64,000 nt of DNA from assembly GCF_003149085.1 (NCBI RefSeq), contig NZ_QGDT01000002.1, positions 124,001-188,000 of the forward strand, read 5' to 3'. The notes beneath the pieces are model-generated. The model saw only the letters and a list, made by a program, of their open reading frames with translations, made no database searches and was not told where the DNA came from. Position 1 is the stretch's first letter. Every line of letters begins with the position of its first letter. Source of the stretch: Dyadobacter jejuensis. Its GTDB lineage: Bacteria; Bacteroidota; Bacteroidia; Cytophagales; Spirosomataceae. The position numbers were made by a program, and so were the translations under genes. This document shows, piece after piece, positions 631 through 58,649 of the stretch.

Positions 631-1519
631 GCAGGCCTTGCAGTCCACCGGTATGGATGGTCACAATGCTGGAGCCTGGTTTAAAATAACCACGCTCCAG
701 CAACTGATATAGTCCATACATCATTTTTCCAGTATATATTTGCTCCAGCTGAATGTGATGCTCCCTGTGGAACCAATCTATAAACTCGAGCAACTCGGTA
801 TTCCAACGACCATAGCCACCAAAGTGAAAATCAGTAAACAGGCTTAGGGAGACATCTGGAGATAGCTCCCCAGCCAAATCTAAAATATCTTTTTCCAAAA
901 ACCCCCCGCCCTTTAGTACTGGAAAAGACAGTACCGAAGCACCCGCCGACAGGATTCCCGCCGCAGTACCGCCAGTACCGGAAGCTAGTGCATAGTAGTC
1001 GGGGCGCCGGCCGAGTTGCTCCCGCACTTCTCCCGTTAGCTCTGCTACTCCTTGCAAGGCCAGTGGTCCGGTACCCCCTTCAGCAATGATCATCGGTGAA
1101 TCGAAACGCTGGCACAGTTCATCTAAGAAGGGGCGTTCAGCCCGTTGCTTGTATTCCTGGCGAGTCACAAAAACCAGCTCCATACCCTGCGCTTCGCAAA
1201 AGGCGAGTGTAGAAGAGCGCTCTTTATCTTCGAGTTCCTCCCCTCTGACGACCCCTATGGTACGAAAGCCCAAGAGCTTACCAGCGGCCGACAAGGCGAA
1301 CAGATGGTTGGAAAAAGCTCCACCAAAGGTCAGGATGGTTTTCACATCCCTTTCGTTAGCCTCTTGTAAGGCATACTTTAATTTGCGCCATTTATTTCCC
1401 GAAACCAAAGGATGTATCAGGTCGTCGCGCTTTATATATAGCTCAACTTCAGCCGTTTTCGTCACCGAATCCGTGAGTCTCTGCAGAGGACTGGGTAAGG
1501 TAGTTGCAAGTAATTTCAC
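614..1519 (-). CDS. PLP-dependent D-cysteine desulfhydrase / ACC deaminase family protein
   Basis: About 301 residues of a fold-type II PLP enzyme. The lysine motif SGNKWRKLKYAL supplies the Schiff-base Lys and is followed by FGGAFSNHLFALSAAG, the cofactor and substrate loop of the D-cysteine desulfhydrase/1-aminocyclopropane-1-carboxylate deaminase family. A Gly/Thr-rich phosphate-binding loop (ASGTGGTAAG) follows at about two thirds of the length. Members release ammonia from D-cysteine (plus sulfide and pyruvate) or from ACC; the sequence alone does not decide which. I chose the GTG at 1519 because it sits after an A/T-rich run and gives the usual short N terminus (MKLLATTLPSPLQ); an in-frame ATG at 1558 would add 13 unusual residues. 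Confidence 0.8.
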   Translation of the reverse strand: MKLLATTLPSPLQRLTDSVTKTAEVELYIKRDDLIHPLVSGNKWRKLKYALQEANERDVKTILTFGGAFSNHLFALSAAGKLLGFRTIGVVRGEELEDKERSSTLAFCEAQGMELVFVTRQEYKQRAERPFLDELCQRFDSPMIIAEGGTGPLALQGVAELTGEVREQLGRRPDYYALASGTGGTAAGILSAGASVLSFPVLKGGGFLEKDILDLAGELSPDVSLSLFTDFHFGGYGRWNTELLEFIDWFHREHHIQLEQIYTGKMMYGLYQLLERGYFKPGSSIVTIHTGGLQGLLSSRR

Positions 1520-1596
1520 AATTTTTAATATTTTTGTAGTCTGAATACCCCAGCACAAGGGCTGTATGAAAGCCTATCATTCCTTATATCTACCGA

Positions 1597-2628
1597 ATGT
1601 CTATTGACTTACAAGAAATACCTTCCGAGGAAGACGATCTATTTGAACACTACAGAATCGTAGTCGATAAGGGACAAACCCCTATCCGGCTAGACAGATA
1701 CCTGAGCCATCATGTAGCCAATGCTTCTCGAACAAAAATACAAAATGGAATTGAAGCCGAGGCAGTAAAAGTAAATGACATCCCCAGCAAGGCCAGCTAT
1801 AAAGTAAAGCCCCTGGATGTTATTACCTTGTCGCTACCCGAGCCACCGAGGGATACGGACATCCTCCCCGAAAACATCCCACTGGACATCATATATGAAG
1901 ATGATGTGCTGCTGATCGTCAACAAACCTACCGGAATGGTGGTACACCCTGCGCATGGTAACTGGACAGGAACCCTCATCAACGCCCTGGTATATCATTT
2001 TAACAATCTCCCGACTGGTCGGAATGGCGAAGGACGTCCCGGACTGGTACATCGTATCGATAAAGACACCTCGGGGCTATTGGTGATCGCCAAAACGGAG
2101 TTTGCAATGAGTTTCCTTGCCAAGCAGTTTTTCGATCACAGTATTGAACGCACCTATCAGGCGATCGTCTGGGGCGTTCCTGACGAAGAGAAAGGCACTA
2201 TAACGGGGCATATCGGACGGAGTGCACGCGATCGCCGGGTGATGTCGGTATATACCGATGGTAGCCAGGGAAAGCATGCGGTTACGCATTATGAAGTCCT
2301 GCGGCCCTTGCGTTATATATCCTTGGTGAAATGTAATTTAGAGACAGGACGCACGCATCAGATAAGAGCCCATATGCAGCACATAGGCCACCCTATTTTT
2401 AATGATCCCAGCTACGGAGGCGACCGCATCGTGAAGGGAATAGCCAACGGCACTTATAAAACCATGGTACAAAACTGCTTTGGGATGATTTCAGGACAGG
2501 CGTTACATGCCAAATCGTTAGGCTTTATCCACCCTAGCAGCAAGCAATGGGTGCAATTTGATACCGAACTGCCCGAAAGCTTTCAGAACATCATCGATAA
2601 ATGGGAAACCTTTGTCCAATATCAGTAA
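1597..2628 (+). CDS. RluA/RluD-family 23S rRNA pseudouridine synthase
   Basis: 343 residues. An S4 RNA-binding domain lies at about residues 28-85 (RLDRYLSHHV start) and the pseudouridine synthase domain at about 95-320. The catalytic motif HRIDKDTSG lies at 152-160, with Asp155 as the expected nucleophile. The 'GRTHQIRAHMQHIGHPI' block typical of the family is present near residue 250. S4 plus this length fits RluD-like enzymes that modify helix 69 of 23S rRNA, but several RluA paralogues occur per Bacteroidota genome and the exact target is inferred. It diverges from the PLP-enzyme gene. Confidence 0.9.
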   Translation: MSIDLQEIPSEEDDLFEHYRIVVDKGQTPIRLDRYLSHHVANASRTKIQNGIEAEAVKVNDIPSKASYKVKPLDVITLSLPEPPRDTDILPENIPLDIIYEDDVLLIVNKPTGMVVHPAHGNWTGTLINALVYHFNNLPTGRNGEGRPGLVHRIDKDTSGLLVIAKTEFAMSFLAKQFFDHSIERTYQAIVWGVPDEEKGTITGHIGRSARDRRVMSVYTDGSQGKHAVTHYEVLRPLRYISLVKCNLETGRTHQIRAHMQHIGHPIFNDPSYGGDRIVKGIANGTYKTMVQNCFGMISGQALHAKSLGFIHPSSKQWVQFDTELPESFQNIIDKWETFVQYQ

Positions 2629-5854: not shown

Positions 5855-6183
5855 ACTAATATTTGTTAATTTGGTGAAAATCGAATGGAAAGATTAAAAA
5901 AGCATTCCAACCTCCCAACGAAAACTATAATATACTCAATTACTGACAATTAGACACCATTATTTATTCTGCATATCCTATATTTTAGCCAAAATGATGA
6001 ATTATTGGGATAACTTTCCACAGTAATCATGATATAACGCAACACAATCACCAAAATGGCGTATCCCTTGGCAAGGTTCTTGCTAGTTTGTATTTAAGGC
6101 CTTTTTCCTCATTTTGAAATAGGTAACCATAAACTACCAACCCCTCCTCTCTGAATATACAAATATAATCTAGAAGATGCCCT
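5855..6183. other. Intergenic region without a recognised gene
   Basis: 329 bp, A/T-rich, between the divergent YtxH-like and response-regulator genes. It must hold promoters for both, but I find no exact TAnnTTTG box with a partner. No tRNA-like or repeat structure is evident. Confidence 0.5.
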
Positions 6184-6552
6184 ATGAAAATTGTGATAAT
6201 TGAGGATGAAAAGGACTTGAGTACACTAATGCGCAACTTCCTTATAAAACAATTTCAAACCGACTCATCCGCCGCCGTGATTAAAATTGCACACACCTTA
6301 TCGGAAGGAAAACATATTGTAAGTAACCTGAAGCCTGATTGGATTTTTCTGGACAATAACCTTCCCGATGGTAAAGGCATCAACGAAATTGTTCATCTTA
6401 AATCGACCCCATCGCCTGACCCCGTCAAAGTAGTGATGATGAGTGCCATGACCAACCTAAGAGATGAAGCCCTACACTTGGGTGCCGACTTCTTTTTGGA
6501 TAAGCCTATCAGCTTCAATGCCGTTATCAAAATTATCGCCAGCAATTCCTAG
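6184..6552 (+). CDS. Single-domain response regulator (CheY-like receiver)
   Basis: 122 residues forming only a receiver domain. The acidic pocket is EDE at 7-9, the phospho-acceptor is Asp57 (WIFLDNNLPDG), the conserved Ser/Thr is in MMSAMT and the Lys is in FFLDKP near 110. There is no output domain, so it acts by protein contact or in a phosphorelay. No kinase is adjacent; the histidine kinase at 17.6-19.0 kb has its own OmpR-type partner. Its stop lies 90 bp from the convergent TPR gene. Confidence 0.88.
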   Translation: MKIVIIEDEKDLSTLMRNFLIKQFQTDSSAAVIKIAHTLSEGKHIVSNLKPDWIFLDNNLPDGKGINEIVHLKSTPSPDPVKVVMMSAMTNLRDEALHLGADFFLDKPISFNAVIKIIASNS

Positions 6553-6642
6553 AAAAGGTTCGTTATCCACCACACCTCTACTTTTTTTACTCAAATCGTA
6601 GAAAGAAATACCCAACGATTAGGTAAGACCTGAATCCGAGCG

Positions 6643-8922
6643 TCACCAGAAAACAGGGCACCTAGTGCCAGAACTGGCACGTTTCCCGGGCATTTTCACC
6701 TTCTGGGAGCGGTACTTGGTTCGTTTCCTTGATTTCGACTCTTCCTCTTGGGGAGCATAAGGCTCCATTTTAAAATCAAACTCAGGGATAAAATATTCCT
6801 CTCTATAATGCTCAGGAGGTAAAGGCATATAATGACGCCCTGGAAATGTAAGAGTATCGAAGGTGTAATCGTATAAAAAAATGGTCACAAAACCATCCCG
6901 ACTATATTTAATACCAATATCAGAATAAGGACCATCATCACCAGCCGAGGCCACCAATTTCATCATTTCCTCTTGTTTCCCTTTCAAAAGCACGTTCATA
7001 TTATATTGAAATACGCGGTGAAGGGAGTCCAACTGAATAGCCACCCCCAAGTAATAACGGGCATCTTTGACCATCTGTCTGCCTGCATACATCACAGCGG
7101 TATTATTCAAAGCACTCTTGTCCTGGTAATTCTGATAGCTAAGCTTGGCCTCATCATATTGTTCCCAGTATTTATATACATTGCCTTGATTTACATTATA
7201 CAATTTTCGGCTTGGTGCTGCAGCCATGGCATTTTTAAAATCAGCAAATGCCCCGTCATATCTTATATTGGCTAGGTTCACTTCGCGTTTCTGCTCGTGA
7301 CGGTTGCCAAGATAAGACTGTACGATTCCATGGTTATTCAACAAAAAGGGTAAGTCAGGGCGTTCCCCGAGCAAACTATCGAATAGGGCCATAGATTTGT
7401 CCAGTTGATCGTCCTCTAGCAATACTACGCCCCAGCCATTCTGAGCGTTAATGTTTTCGGGCTTTAAGGTTACTGCCTTTCTAAAAACCTGATACGCCTT
7501 GGTAAACATATCGAAATGGATGAGCAAGTTCCCATAATTGCTCCACATTTCACTATAGTTTTTTTCTAGCCCTAAGGCCTTGGCCAAATACTGACCGGCC
7601 CTACTATATTGTTTTTGGGCAATTAGGTTATTACTCATCCCAGCCATAGCTTCGTATCGATTTGGATCCAAGGCCAAAGCCGTTAAAAACGACTTTTCGG
7701 CCAGCTCCAAGCGTCCTAACTGCTGAGCGGTATAGCCTTTGGTCACAAACAGGTCGGCCTGCTGGGGGTTATTGTCATCCAAGGCGTCGCTCCCACTTTC
7801 AAAATCGTCCATAGCCCTCTGATAGCGCTTCCTGCCATAATTGGACACCGCCCTTCCCAAATAAGCCATTCCATAGGTATCATCCAGCTTTAGCGCCCTA
7901 TCGAACAAATTAAAGGCGAAGTCATACTCGTGTTTGGCCAGATGAACATTTGCTATTCCACAAAGCAAAGCAGGGGTTTCACGCATAGAGGAAGCCGCTA
8001 GCCGATAATAGCGCATGGCCATTTCCAATTGGTTTTTCCCGTAAAAAGCATGAGCCAGACCTAAATAAGCACTGGCTCTAAAACCTCTGTGGCCACTTTG
8101 AATGTACGCTTCAAATACCTCTTTGGCCTTAGAGAATTCATTTAAAGACAATAAGGAATTGGCATAACGGATTTGGGCTTTATGGAAGCGTCGGGCCACC
8201 TTTTCAAAATCCTTCACGGCACTTTTCTCTTGGTTCAAATCCATATACAAATCTCCACGAAGTAGCCGGTATGCAGCCAGTTCATCTTTGGATCGAATCG
8301 CTAGGGAAAGCTCATCGACAGCCTCTGCCTTTTCGCCATTAAGATGGGCCAATAGCCCCTTATTATAATGCCACTTGGCTGCCTTCCTCCCATAATTTAC
8401 CGATTGCGCATAATTATTAGCGGCCTCATAAGCCTGCTCACGTCCATAGCCATACAGCATATTAAGGTCTAAATGGGGCCTGCTGGGCACTTTTTGAAGA
8501 TCCTCTCTGGATCGTTTATACTCCCCTGCTAGCATGGCTACCAGCCCCCGATTGTAGCGAAGGTCGTCCGATTGGTTCGACAGGTCTAAGCCTTTCAAAA
8601 TCCGGTACGATTTATGAAAATTCCCACTCAAGGCCAGTAGTAGCGCTTCATTGTTCAGCCTGGCAATGGAATCGGAAGGGTTGTATTGGGCCTGGTGGTA
8701 TTTATTATAATGGGCTTTTAGCTGCCGAAGTTTCTTCTGATAATCGACCGACCTTAAAAGCGCCGGGTTATTTTCTTCAAAAGACTGGTTAAACAACGGC
8801 AATATTTCTTTTAAACCAGAATTACAATCATCGAAGTTTTGGGCATACCCTCGCAAGCCTGTCCAAAAACAAGCAAGCAATAGCCAAATAAAGGAATAAT
8901 CAGATGGAGTCCTTTTGTTCAT
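6643..8922 (-). CDS. Large secreted/periplasmic tetratricopeptide-repeat protein
   Basis: 759 residues. The N terminus has a hydrophobic segment (FIWLLLACFWTGLRGYAQ) that looks like a signal peptide ending near residue 28. From about 90 to 640 it consists of successive TPR units; clear ones include 'YMAYLGRAVSNYGRKRYQRA' and 'YSEMWSNYGNLLIHFDMFTK'. The last ~100 residues are not TPR and end in a Lys/Arg-rich tail. TPR arrays mediate protein contacts. No catalytic domain is visible and the partner is unknown. It is monocistronic. Confidence 0.82.
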   Translation of the reverse strand: MNKRTPSDYSFIWLLLACFWTGLRGYAQNFDDCNSGLKEILPLFNQSFEENNPALLRSVDYQKKLRQLKAHYNKYHQAQYNPSDSIARLNNEALLLALSGNFHKSYRILKGLDLSNQSDDLRYNRGLVAMLAGEYKRSREDLQKVPSRPHLDLNMLYGYGREQAYEAANNYAQSVNYGRKAAKWHYNKGLLAHLNGEKAEAVDELSLAIRSKDELAAYRLLRGDLYMDLNQEKSAVKDFEKVARRFHKAQIRYANSLLSLNEFSKAKEVFEAYIQSGHRGFRASAYLGLAHAFYGKNQLEMAMRYYRLAASSMRETPALLCGIANVHLAKHEYDFAFNLFDRALKLDDTYGMAYLGRAVSNYGRKRYQRAMDDFESGSDALDDNNPQQADLFVTKGYTAQQLGRLELAEKSFLTALALDPNRYEAMAGMSNNLIAQKQYSRAGQYLAKALGLEKNYSEMWSNYGNLLIHFDMFTKAYQVFRKAVTLKPENINAQNGWGVVLLEDDQLDKSMALFDSLLGERPDLPFLLNNHGIVQSYLGNRHEQKREVNLANIRYDGAFADFKNAMAAAPSRKLYNVNQGNVYKYWEQYDEAKLSYQNYQDKSALNNTAVMYAGRQMVKDARYYLGVAIQLDSLHRVFQYNMNVLLKGKQEEMMKLVASAGDDGPYSDIGIKYSRDGFVTIFLYDYTFDTLTFPGRHYMPLPPEHYREEYFIPEFDFKMEPYAPQEEESKSRKRTKYRSQKVKMPGKRASSGTRCPVFW

Positions 8923-51492: not shown

Positions 51493-51525
51493 AAATACCG
51501 GTTTGTTTTAAACAAACCGGTATTT
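51493..51525. terminator. Long near-perfect hairpin, probable terminator
   Basis: Arms 51493-51508 (aaataccggtttgttt) and 51510-51525 (aaacaaaccggtattt) are exact complements with A/T-rich flanks giving T runs in both directions. It stands upstream of the ATP-grasp gene and about 360 bp beyond the carbonic-anhydrase-like gene, so it could end that operon's transcript. Confidence 0.65.
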
Positions 51526-51885: not shown

Positions 51886-52629
51886 TTAATCGAGACGATT
51901 CAGGTAGTTATGGTGTTCGTTGGTGGAAAGGTCAATCACTTCAAAACGTCTTATTTCGGTAAATGAGCCCATGTCTCCATCACTGTTAATGAGAATGGCC
52001 CCCAGGAGTATCACGTATTTACATTTATACTGGGTCTTCTCGATCAATTCTCCAATGCGCTTATCTATCGCTTCATAGATCACCTCTGTGGCCTCAAATA
52101 TAGGCGTTGGGCTAGACAACACCCTTTCCTTTTCCTGATATAGAATCTGTTCGATGGTGTTCATTTGATAATCCAATTCGGTAATATGTCCGGCTGTAAT
52201 TTGGTTATCGATGAGCTTTCCTAAGGCGCCTTTCGCAGCACCACAGCAGCCACTATTTTTGTTCTGGCCCGATCGATGAATTTCGCCAAGCTTACCATCT
52301 TTGGTTACACCGATATGGGGGCCATAATAAATAAATACGGCCCCTTCGTCGGGGACATGGCTGGCAAATGCCCCCATACCCGTCAGTCCGGTAAAGGGGA
52401 ATCCATCCAAGCCCCCCATTTTGAAGGGTCCCAAAAACTCCTGGGTACGCACCGGGTATTGAATGCTGTTCACATCGTCGCTACATATACTGTCGGCTAA
52501 CATAACCTGCTTGGGCTCCAAGTCAAGCTCCCATTCCACAAAATCTATGATTTTGTTTACACTGTCGATGGTGGTGATGGCCTTTGGATACCATTTCTGA
52601 ATGATGGCCAATTTCTCTCTTTTCTTCAT
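51886..52629 (-). CDS. LCIB-family beta-carbonic-anhydrase-like protein
   Basis: 247 residues, no signal peptide. I assign it to the LCIB/LCIC family first known from green-algal CO2 concentration. The visible motifs are SICSDDVN with Cys49 and Asp51, 'LGPFKMGGLDGFPFTGLTGM', 'IYYGPHIGVTKDGKLGEI' with His105, and SGCCGAAKGAL with Cys128/129. Cys-His-Cys are the zinc ligands and the Asp after the first Cys is part of the catalytic dyad in this beta-CA-like fold. It would interconvert CO2 and bicarbonate in the cytoplasm. It lies 15 bp after the bestrophin gene. The assignment rests on motif memory; active-site competence is inferred. Confidence 0.75.
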   Translation of the reverse strand: MKKREKLAIIQKWYPKAITTIDSVNKIIDFVEWELDLEPKQVMLADSICSDDVNSIQYPVRTQEFLGPFKMGGLDGFPFTGLTGMGAFASHVPDEGAVFIYYGPHIGVTKDGKLGEIHRSGQNKNSGCCGAAKGALGKLIDNQITAGHITELDYQMNTIEQILYQEKERVLSSPTPIFEATEVIYEAIDKRIGELIEKTQYKCKYVILLGAILINSDGDMGSFTEIRRFEVIDLSTNEHHNYLNRLD

Positions 52630-52644
52630 ATTGATGATGGTTGT

Positions 52645-53628
52645 TTACAGGAGTATGTTGTTAGTCGGGGTGATCGGTTCGGGAAGGTTGGTCTCATCGA
52701 TCATCTCCCTCAAATCGATTTCGATGGTACGGCTGAGGGCGGCCATGGGAATATCGTTGGCTCCCCCTTCAAAAGGGTTTTCGGTGGATTCTCCCACTTT
52801 TTCCATAGAGGTAAAAACCCAGGATACCAGCACTGAAAATGGAATGGTGAGCCATACATAAATATCGCCCAGCTTTTGAAATTCGTGGAGCATACCAAAA
52901 GGCAGCATCAGGACCATTAGCCACACAAAAAATAAATTGATACTGGCAAACTGCCTGGGGTACGGGAAGTTCTTGATCCTTTCGCTTTTACCTTGATGGT
53001 CGTATAAATCAGCCAATCGTCTTTCCATTTCCACATATTCGTAGGCTTGAATTTTACCCGCTGCTCTCAGGGCTTTAAGGTCCTTGGACTGTAAGGCTAT
53101 TAATTGGGTAGCCCGGTTCGATTTGCCCAGGACCTGCTGAAGTTCGGCTCCGCTCAGGTATTTTTTCAATTCGACCTCGAGGTCACCCTCCCACTCAGGC
53201 ACCTTATAATATTTGAGGAATTCCACATTATAGGATTTACTCGAATTTTCCCAAGGCTGCTTTTTACGTAGCTGAAAACGAAGGGCAGTAAGCCAGGCGA
53301 TATGTCGGTATATAAGCCGCTCAGTGGCCTCCCGATCGGCCACAAAATCTTTACTGAGGATTCCCCAAGTGCGACTGGTATTGACCACCCCTCCCCAGAT
53401 CTTCCTAGCCTCCCATAAGCGGTTGTAGGTTTGGGTGTTTTTAAAACCTATAATAAATGCCGCTGCCGTGCCCACCAAAGCTACGGGGACCCAGGGAATG
53501 GCTAGCCATGTTAGACCAAACACCTGATATAAAATCGTGGGTACGGTGCCTATCAACAGCAGCACATAAACGTCACGCCTGGTCCACATTAAGAATTCCG
53601 ATATTTTATAATGACTTCCTGTATGCAT
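52645..53628 (-). CDS. Bestrophin-family (RFP-TM) ion channel
   Basis: 327 residues. TM segments are at about 20-38, 42-62, 228-245 and 255-270, with the hallmark 'FKNTQTYNRLWEARKIWGG' after TM2 and the C-terminal ENPFEGGANDIPM (about 283-295), the Ca-clasp-like/family signature. Bestrophins form pentameric channels; animal members pass Cl- and bicarbonate, algal ones are implicated in bicarbonate delivery, while at least one bacterial member is cation-selective. Ion choice is thus open. It is the middle gene of a three-gene operon, 2 bp after the potassium-channel gene and 15 bp before the LCIB-like gene. Confidence 0.9.
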   Translation of the reverse strand: MHTGSHYKISEFLMWTRRDVYVLLLIGTVPTILYQVFGLTWLAIPWVPVALVGTAAAFIIGFKNTQTYNRLWEARKIWGGVVNTSRTWGILSKDFVADREATERLIYRHIAWLTALRFQLRKKQPWENSSKSYNVEFLKYYKVPEWEGDLEVELKKYLSGAELQQVLGKSNRATQLIALQSKDLKALRAAGKIQAYEYVEMERRLADLYDHQGKSERIKNFPYPRQFASINLFFVWLMVLMLPFGMLHEFQKLGDIYVWLTIPFSVLVSWVFTSMEKVGESTENPFEGGANDIPMAALSRTIEIDLREMIDETNLPEPITPTNNILL

Positions 53629-53630
53629 AA

Positions 53631-54302
53631 TTATGTATGGTTTGAAGAATTGGTAAACTTGCTAATTAATATCCCTACCAACACTACCGAGTAAAACTGC
53701 CCTGCAATTCCGATCAGAGAGGCGGCTAGTTTGGTATAATGGACATTGGGAGTAATGTCGCCATAGCCTATACTGGTTAAGGTAATAGAGCAAAAATATA
53801 CGAGGTCTATAAAGGTATGAGCCGGGGTAGTATAGTTAATTCCTTTAAAAGAATTTGTATCGGAATACACCCACATTTGAAAAGTAAAGACGGAAATTTC
53901 TATGAGTAAAAACATACCACAGGCAGCCGCCGAAATGATGTCGGTATTGATATATCGGGGCCTCAGCAGAAACTTAAAGACTTCTAGAAAGATGAATATA
54001 AAAAAAACAATATAGCTCAAGTTAAGCAAGTGCATAAAAGTGGGTATCCCCTTAAAAAAGGGAAGCAGGACCGGAAAACCGATTACAATGAGGGTGAGTA
54101 CATTTTTAACGATGTTTTTCACCTTGCCTTTTTCTATAAAAACCCCCACACTGGCCAGGCCAAGGATAACCATATTGATGGGCCAAAGAATTTCAATATA
54201 AAAAGGCAGATCTCTTACTACAATACCGATATATAAATGTTGTAAAAGAGCCAGAAGCAACAGTTCATACTTTCTATTTTTTACGATTTCTTTGACATTC
54301 AT
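53631..54302 (-). CDS. Potassium channel (Ion_trans_2 type)
   Basis: 223 residues with about six hydrophobic segments and a pore loop carrying the potassium selectivity filter TSIGYGD (176-182) between the last two helices. There is no S4-like Arg repeat and no RCK domain, so gating is unknown. It is the first gene of the operon with bestrophin and the LCIB-like protein; a role in balancing charge during anion flux is inference. Confidence 0.9.
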   Translation of the reverse strand: MNVKEIVKNRKYELLLLALLQHLYIGIVVRDLPFYIEILWPINMVILGLASVGVFIEKGKVKNIVKNVLTLIVIGFPVLLPFFKGIPTFMHLLNLSYIVFFIFIFLEVFKFLLRPRYINTDIISAAACGMFLLIEISVFTFQMWVYSDTNSFKGINYTTPAHTFIDLVYFCSITLTSIGYGDITPNVHYTKLAASLIGIAGQFYSVVLVGILISKFTNSSNHT

Positions 54303-57320: not shown

Positions 57321-58649
57321 CTAGACGGAAGCTTCATTTTTAGACGGTTGTCGGTTTAATGATATAATCAAGGATAAAATACTTATCAGATACAAGCCTA
57401 GGAGCAGGTAATGGCTATAAGGATAAATCAGGTCGACTAGCTGCGTTACAGAATTAGGTTGCTCACTAATTCTTTCCATAATCCAGCCCAGGGCAACCAC
57501 CATGATTAGGCCCGCCAAAAAGTTTCTTACATAGCCAAATACGGTGGTTTGGCTTAACATTATAAATGCAGGAACGGTAATCACGATGACCATCAATTGC
57601 ATGAATTCTATTCCTAGATTAAAACCTAAAACACTTAAAAACAGCTCATAACTATCTAAATTGAAATGGTATAAAGTTTGGGAAAAGGCCAAACCATGTA
57701 TCAATCCGAAACCCGTTGCGATCCATAATTCTTTATTATAAAACAAGGGTTTAACGGCATGTATGGCGGAAATAAAAATGGATACCGCTATCAACACTTC
57801 AATCCATTGAACCGGAAAGTCCTGTATCCCTAAGGTGCCAATTAACAAGGTTAGTGAGTGACCCAGAGTAAATGCTGTGATGATTTTCAAAAGCTTAGTC
57901 AAGCTATATTTAATACCACCATAGCCAGCCCATTTCTCATTACGAACCAATAGGCAAGCAGGCAATAAGAGCGTTAGTATAAAAAGCAAATGATCGGTAC
58001 CCTCTTTAATATGCTGCATGCCATACGACACCATACCCATAAATCCCTGAACACCATCCCCCTTTTCCAAGTGAATTTCTAAGGGATAAATACGGTTGTC
58101 TTCGGTATCCACCCGAATGATGCCTATTTCAGATGGCTTGTTCTGTAGCCTACCTTTTTCCCAGTCGTTGCGTATCGATACAAAAGCCACATGGTTGCCT
58201 ACCCGATGCATGATCAAGTCGTAGTCCAAAGTAAATCGTCGGGTATTTTCTCCCTGTTTAGGGCTTAGTACCAGGCTTACATTCAATTCTCGAATGGGTC
58301 TACCACTGATTGCATCCTTTTCTTGATCAAGATGCATGTCTGTAATAGATACCCTCCAGGGTTGTTTAGGGTCAACATAGGCATGGACATGCTTTAGAAC
58401 ATAGGTTTCTAACTCTTCTTTTTTTGTTTGCAGAAGCGTTTCCGGGCTCTCCTCTAAGTTTTGACCCATAGCCAGGCTCAGTTCACTCAGGGGCAATTGT
58501 AGTTCTAAGGCCAGCAGCCGTGGACTTATATCCATTACAGCCATAGTCGTTGGACTTTGGTGGGCATATCCCTGGGTGACCACCAAGACCCCTATCATGG
58601 TAACAATCAATTGCTTGAAGCAATTGATTGTTAAAAAGGAATAGCTCAT
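57321..58649 (-). CDS. HupE/UreJ-type membrane protein with N-terminal periplasmic domain
   Basis: 442 residues. A signal peptide (about 1-30) leads into a ~190-residue extracytoplasmic domain, then six or seven TM helices with the HupE/UreJ_2 motifs 'MQHIKEGTDHLLFILTLLLP', FTLGHSLTLLIG and 'GFGLIHGLAFSQTLY'. The conserved His/Asp residues suggest transition-metal transport; no hydrogenase or urease genes are near. Its start is 3 bp past the DUF3500 stop. The first 16 codons contain a 14-bp perfect hairpin. Confidence 0.85.
   Translation of the reverse strand: MSYSFLTINCFKQLIVTMIGVLVVTQGYAHQSPTTMAVMDISPRLLALELQLPLSELSLAMGQNLEESPETLLQTKKEELETYVLKHVHAYVDPKQPWRVSITDMHLDQEKDAISGRPIRELNVSLVLSPKQGENTRRFTLDYDLIMHRVGNHVAFVSIRNDWEKGRLQNKPSEIGIIRVDTEDNRIYPLEIHLEKGDGVQGFMGMVSYGMQHIKEGTDHLLFILTLLLPACLLVRNEKWAGYGGIKYSLTKLLKIITAFTLGHSLTLLIGTLGIQDFPVQWIEVLIAVSIFISAIHAVKPLFYNKELWIATGFGLIHGLAFSQTLYHFNLDSYELFLSVLGFNLGIEFMQLMVIVITVPAFIMLSQTTVFGYVRNFLAGLIMVVALGWIMERISEQPNSVTQLVDLIYPYSHYLLLGLYLISILSLIISLNRQPSKNEASV
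58602..58632 (-). promoter_or_regulatory. Perfect hairpin within the first codons of hupE-like gene
   Basis: 58602-58615 and 58619-58632 are exact 14-bp complements with a 3-nt loop, spanning codons 6-16. Such a stem near the start could limit translation of HupE relative to the upstream DUF3500 gene, or act as an attenuator. Confidence 0.45.

Follow-up and report, generated by a model that had tools for sequence, protein, structure and literature searches.

A bestrophin–LCIB gene pair that recurs in Bacteroidota and its possible part in CO2-coupled acid loading

A bestrophin gene and a gene for an LCIB-type carbonic anhydrase (CA) form a recurrent module in Bacteroidota, in which their adjacency exceeds chance. 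In the window (the whole 64,000-nucleotide stretch of Dyadobacter jejuensis DNA analysed here), they stand in one row with a predicted potassium channel (Table 1). The parts are already known; their three-gene arrangement in a bacterium is a new variant, and a literature search with terms aimed at a bacterial LCIB–bestrophin row found no earlier report. We tentatively read the row as a CO2-coupled acid-loading and salt-release module, which the gene neighbourhoods and residue comparisons make possible but short of probable.

The three-gene row and its LCIB-type protein

Table 1. Features of the row and its 3' flank (window positions)
Feature	Position	Strand	Basis
Potassium channel, six-helix type, 223 aa	53631..54302	-	ORF; Ion_trans_2 41.9 bits
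Bestrophin, 327 aa; neck Thr54-Phe58-Phe62	52645..53628	-	ORF; Bestrophin_2 PF25539 164.5 bits; KpBest E 2.6e-30
LCIB-type carbonic anhydrase, 247 aa	51886..52629	-	ORF; PF18599 253.9 bits; PDB relatives
Terminator-like hairpin, 15 pairs then T-rich stretch	51493..51525	-	Consensus match only

The first-pass annotation described three minus-strand genes separated by gaps of 2 and 15 bp, and the ORF coordinates agree. From this spacing, we infer a single transcript. A hairpin scan found no terminator-like hairpins in either gap; the hairpin in Table 1 (read 51525-51493) lies 3' of the LCIB gene, ahead of the next same-strand gene, and the region has 5 hairpins of this kind, close to the shuffled expectation (mean 3.6, s.d. 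2.2). The region upstream encodes a HupE/UreJ_2 protein next to an MFS transporter (57321-58649, minus strand), which has no evident connection with the row.

The assignment of the 247-aa protein to the LCIB family is borne out. Its match to LCIB_C_CA (Pfam cut-off 25 bits) covers positions 2-223 of the 223 in the profile; NCBIfam, on the other hand, has no family that matched either this protein or the window's bestrophin. A PDB search returned as solved relatives 6kfs (E 8.5e-31), PtLCIB4 (3e-27), LCIB (4.1e-8) and LCIC (9.3e-8). A structure model built from 28 sequences (pLDDT 85.7; Foldseek E 4e-17) matches the folds of 6kfs and 5b5y with Z 26.4 over 231-235 residues, LCIB with Z 21.3, LCIC with 19.9 and beta-CAs with about 9. 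All 28 aligned homologues keep Cys49, Asp51, His91, Arg119, Cys128 and Cys129. The Cys-His-Cys zinc ligands and the Asp/Arg pair are thus all in place; the match to His162/Arg194 of LCIB, residues named in PMC5876011, comes from our own alignment. His91 and Ser50 align to H88 and S47 of PtLCIB4 (as numbered in the PDB titles) and, by our own residue matching, Ser50 is kept where a PtLCIB4 mutant has Arg.

Chlamydomonas LCIB and LCIC are themselves described as lacking CA activity in passages of PMC8825250 and PMC5876011, where one review ties the inactivity to disorder of His162 and Arg194. Because the window's protein keeps its active-site residues, and the algal inactivity is tied to that disorder, it is likely to be catalytically active.

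Elsewhere among the LCIB loci collected, L013 (G031) carries a second LCIB-like gene (1447-2169, minus strand) 16 kb from an intact LCIB. It has lost the Cys/His zinc positions and adjoins two response-regulator-like genes; its product is a dead enzyme or a sensor. In Spirosoma lacussanchae (L084), LCIB is split into two open frames (6001-6303 and 6466-6765, plus strand), with no bestrophin behind them and an H+-pyrophosphatase family gene ahead.

Recurrence and inheritance of the pair

When 84,980 species genomes were scanned, 259 LCIB relatives turned up, and the analysis used the best 80 loci among them. This choice favours close relatives, and L070/L083 and L115/L116 are each two loci from a single genome. 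In 44 of these best 80 of 259 loci, spread over many Bacteroidota families, the bestrophin gene is no more than 250 bp from LCIB, so the recurrent neighbourhood that had been predicted is found. The two genes always share a strand (44/44, none opposed), with the bestrophin upstream in 38 pairs and downstream in 6, and the gap is ≤30 bp in 38 of the 44. Bestrophin lies farther off in another 3 of the 80 loci; in the other 33, some of which end at contig edges, the flanking DNA has none. One row (L113) sits on a contig named Limnohabitans, from a Pseudomonadota MAG, and is nearly identical to a Chitinophagaceae row; this is probably a binning error.

On an LCIB tree of 108 rows, linkage to bestrophin needs a minimum of 21 changes, 8 of which are imposed by starred branches (mean 36 after shuffling), so the link has been repeatedly made or lost. 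LCIB and bestrophin distances correlate over 53 adjacent pairs with r 0.42, a value that includes shared species history and that none of 5000 permutations reached. In a survey of the phylum, LCIB was found in 35 of 395 genomes, PF25539 in 89 and both in 6, five of which are the window's genome or belong to its class. The other large LCIB group (f42) mostly lacks bestrophin, which was matched in 1 of its genomes; the pairing therefore belongs to one LCIB group and not to the whole family.

The linked bestrophins are equally confined: 54 linked rows all fall inside one clade of 58 (SH-aLRT 98). A clade dedicated to LCIB is ruled out by its many unlinked members in the window's genus. There, LCIB occurs in 13 of 48 genomes, every one of which has a clade bestrophin, either beside LCIB (9 genomes) or 4.5-5.6 kb off on the same strand (4 genomes). 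Since the clade bestrophin is also present in 29 of the 35 genomes without LCIB, LCIB is an accessory and the 13/13 co-occurrence is not significant.

On the LCIB tree, the window's protein has its nearest company in Flammeovirgaceae, Chitinophagaceae, Weeksellaceae and others, and the rest of the genus has LCIBs that sit in different groups. This scattered placement points to horizontal transfer; a search of 72,556 plasmid records returned no match. Five genomes of the genus (L257-L261) have the gene order of L239, with neighbours 76-96% identical and LCIB absent, so that LCIB is gained or lost at a bestrophin locus that itself stays in place.

Such clean presence or absence at one conserved locus would suit a non-enzymatic LCIB, a subunit that senses CO2/HCO3- or has a structural part and gates the bestrophin. 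The inactivity of algal LCIB/LCIC fits the same idea, as does the physical contact of Chlamydomonas LCIB/C with BST1 and BST3, with which it shares low-CO2 induction (PMC6708349). A mere scaffold would have no need of zinc, Asp and Arg residues that are invariant in 28 relatives, and the retention of Ser50 speaks against it too. We consider a non-enzymatic subunit unlikely.

The bestrophin and its cation partners

The 327-aa protein clears the PF25539 cut-off of 27 bits in Pfam and aligns with the KpBest chains (4wd7) without a gap in the pore helix; the window's genome has three bestrophin matches in all. At the neck, its three residues (Table 1) stand where KpBest has Ile-Ile-Phe. Animal and anion-selective eukaryotic bestrophins have Ile-Phe-Phe (IFF), and KpBest is a Na+ channel that the I66F substitution shifts towards Cl- (PMC8496536). 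Plant VCCN1 is a Cl- channel with a Pro-Leu-Phe neck (PMC9076864); as it conducts Cl- with Leu at the same position, Phe by itself proves nothing about selectivity. We lean towards an anion-selective bestrophin in the window, though the first-pass annotation's warning that bacterial bestrophins can select cations still applies.

Phe occupies the neck position in 58 of 58 LCIB-linked rows (54 distinct sequences) and in 4 of 55 unlinked ones; the comparison left out rows shorter than 240 aa (fragments in L118 and L124), and its unlinked set, made up of the leading PF25539 entries and of our own choices within that list, favours other clades. As a mark of LCIB linkage, Phe58 is ruled out by 20 additional clade members of the genus that have no LCIB beside them, all 20 with a Thr-Phe-Phe neck. 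It marks the clade, and counts as one event and not as 54 independent ones.

A profile of the linked bestrophins scored 51 bits against the PDB chains 7ek1 and 7pl9, which are VCCN1 and an algal bestrhodopsin. An unlinked Bacteroidota bestrophin profile scored 160 and 176 bits against the same chains. Judged by these scores, the linked bestrophins fall outside the plant/algal subfamily and lie farther from it than other Bacteroidota bestrophins do. This disfavours common descent as the basis for the claim that the row is the same partnership as in algae. The bacterial and algal pairs appear to be of independent origin, so that the meeting of the same two families in both carries more weight as evidence on function.

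The 223-aa protein is a predicted tetrameric K+ channel. It exceeds the Ion_trans_2 cut-off (22.5 bits, Pfam), its filter TSIGYGD spans residues 176-182 (positions 53777-53757), and the TxGxGD columns are invariant in 12 aligned homologues. The channel profile matches the pore regions of KCNQ, SK and K2P chains, and a low-confidence model (pLDDT 61.7) has about six long helices and a pore helix. Among the best 80 of 259 loci, such a channel is found in 11, adjoining the bestrophin in 10 and, in L057, beside an LCIB that has no bestrophin; it is adjacent in 11/11 and appears nowhere else among the 969 ORFs of these loci. The channel had been put forward as a fixed partner, and its presence in 10 of the 44 adjacent pairs does not sustain that.

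Other cation routes occur in its stead. A TMEM175 K+ channel is encoded behind LCIB in L114 and 2 bp ahead of a bestrophin in L234. CPA1 antiporters lie beside LCIB and bestrophin in L115-L117, beside LCIB alone in L109 and beside bestrophin in L094, L102, L122, L245 and L263. KefF and KefC genes occur in L008-L011 and L044, those of L009 in one contiguous row with the bestrophin; within the genus, they follow LCIB in five genomes. A further partner, a membrane H+-pyrophosphatase, precedes LCIB in L079, with members of its family in L084 and L120. Many loci have none of these partners, and among the neighbours selected for Pfam scanning, 30 of the 44 adjacent pairs had no recognisable cation route; representatives were scanned and the others joined to them by sequence clustering, so further partners may be missed. 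In two Runella genomes (L065 and L068; 6776-7099, plus strand), a gene of the HopJ family, known here by family name only, lies 31 bp behind LCIB. In L238 (1862-9141, plus strand), genes for a GAF protein, a histidine kinase, a LytTR regulator, bestrophin, LCIB, KefF and KefC are contiguous, and this row is a regulated version of the module.

The physiological role of bacterial bestrophins is termed unknown in PMC4893618. A distinctly unlikely explanation of the row is general salt release for turgor or membrane potential, by a Cl- or cation bestrophin with the K+ channel, LCIB being only co-regulated. Conduction of Na+ by KpBest (PMC8496536) is in keeping with it, and clade members often occur without LCIB, some beside CPA1 (L245, L263). 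Six clade members in the genus, moreover, cluster with GAF, histidine kinase and LytTR regulators. The tight LCIB pairing, which many families show and which comes in either gene order, asks instead for a link to CO2/HCO3-.

Possible functions and comparison with known systems

That link might be inorganic-carbon acquisition on the algal pattern, with carboxylases supplied from an internal HCO3- level that the bestrophin or LCIB raises. LCIB family membership argues for this, as do the algal contacts with BST1 and BST3 and the shared low-CO2 induction noted above (PMC6708349). Further, indirect support for a role in inorganic carbon comes from three genomes (L028, L031 and L038) in which an SbtA-type bicarbonate transporter and a P-II gene run divergently from a distantly related LCIB, whose other flank carries a glyoxalase-like gene. 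These loci are a separate LCIB context in a heterotroph-looking group of the phylum: their LCIBs are 37-39% identical to the window's, and no bestrophin lies within 3.6 kb of flanking DNA.

Other evidence makes acquisition doubtful. The potential across the membrane is negative inside, and a passive anion channel therefore lets HCO3- out and cannot concentrate anions. The first-pass annotation had bicarbonate supplied by uptake through the bestrophin; in a negative-inside cell, the direction through such a channel is exit. It had also noted no visible carbon-fixation genes, and a genome-wide search indeed gave no match to the RuBisCO large chain (PF00016); DabA (PF10070) had no match in the genome either. 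Three other beta-CA matches (187.6, 138.8 and 48.4 bits) undercut the suggestion that LCIB is the CA the cell needs. The inorganic-carbon module as first conceived has in its favour the LCIB family, the recurrence of the pair and, indirectly, the SbtA/P-II genes beside distant LCIBs; algal descent and uptake are not supported.

The reading that we prefer, CO2-coupled acid loading with salt release, takes the channel in its passive direction. Cytosolic LCIB would hydrate metabolic CO2 to HCO3- and H+, and HCO3- would leave through the bestrophin down its electrochemical gradient. Exit of K+ through the channel would balance the charge, and H+ would be retained. The net effect would be K+ and HCO3- out with H+ kept, i.e. 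K+/H+ exchange such as KefF/KefC and CPA1 would perform in related clusters, with LCIB coupling the anion channel to CO2. The cell might use this for pH and turgor control, under an alkaline load or for acidification against electrophiles; Kef-type K+ efflux with H+ influx acidifies the cytosol (PMC10224563).

Several results support acid loading: the adjacency in 44 of 80 loci, on one strand and in both gene orders; a linkage repeatedly made or lost; the kept active-site residues and the LCIB fold; the varied cation routes beside the pair; and, in all linked bestrophins, the Phe that turns KpBest to Cl-. Against it stand the 30 of 44 pairs with no cation route beside them, the 33 of 80 loci without bestrophin, the frequency of the clade bestrophin without LCIB, the neck Phe as a clade trait and the Na+ conduction of KpBest. 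Algal LCIB/LCIC are inactive, SbtA beside distant LCIBs speaks for uptake, and the other three beta-CA matches could hydrate CO2 without LCIB.

A bolder version of the acid-loading reading, which we hold with low confidence, is that LCIB, an anion bestrophin and a K+ channel make up a CO2-powered, pump-free K+/H+ exchanger, interchangeable with Kef or CPA1 for fast acidification of the cytosol in Bacteroidota, algae having recruited both families independently for CO2 trapping.

Among known systems, the DAB/Mps bicarbonate complexes are also bacterial and join CO2 hydration to an ion gradient (PMC13144422), but their membrane protein is unrelated and the window's genome has no DabA match. KefF/KefC stands in related clusters where the window has its K+ channel, with the same net effect proposed; it is one antiporter with a flavoprotein subunit, whereas the window has two channels and an enzyme. 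KpBest of Klebsiella shares the bestrophin family (Table 1) but combines an Ile-Ile-Phe neck with Na+ conduction (PMC8496536), where the window's protein has Thr-Phe-Phe. PtLCIB4 (5b5y) and the CCM-related protein 6kfs have in common with the window's LCIB the fold, the Cys-Ser-Asp motif and the His and Cys positions; identity is 28-29%, and the window's is a bacterial gene beside channels.

The closest parallel in composition is the Chlamydomonas CO2-concentrating mechanism, whose LCIB/LCIC and BST1-3 belong to the same two protein families. The window differs in that one bacterial row also encodes a K+ channel, the genome gave no RuBisCO match, the active-site residues are kept and the bestrophin comes from another subfamily (as judged against plant/algal PDB chains). 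In the algal mechanism, whether LCIB acts as an enzyme and how LCIB and bestrophin cooperate are unsettled. A compact bacterial row with its active-site residues kept is a tractable system for the pair, away from photosynthesis, and culturable Bacteroidota are among the named loci (Flavobacterium, Pedobacter, Runella and Chryseobacterium). Bacterial bestrophins, for their part, gain a concrete partner and a testable function.
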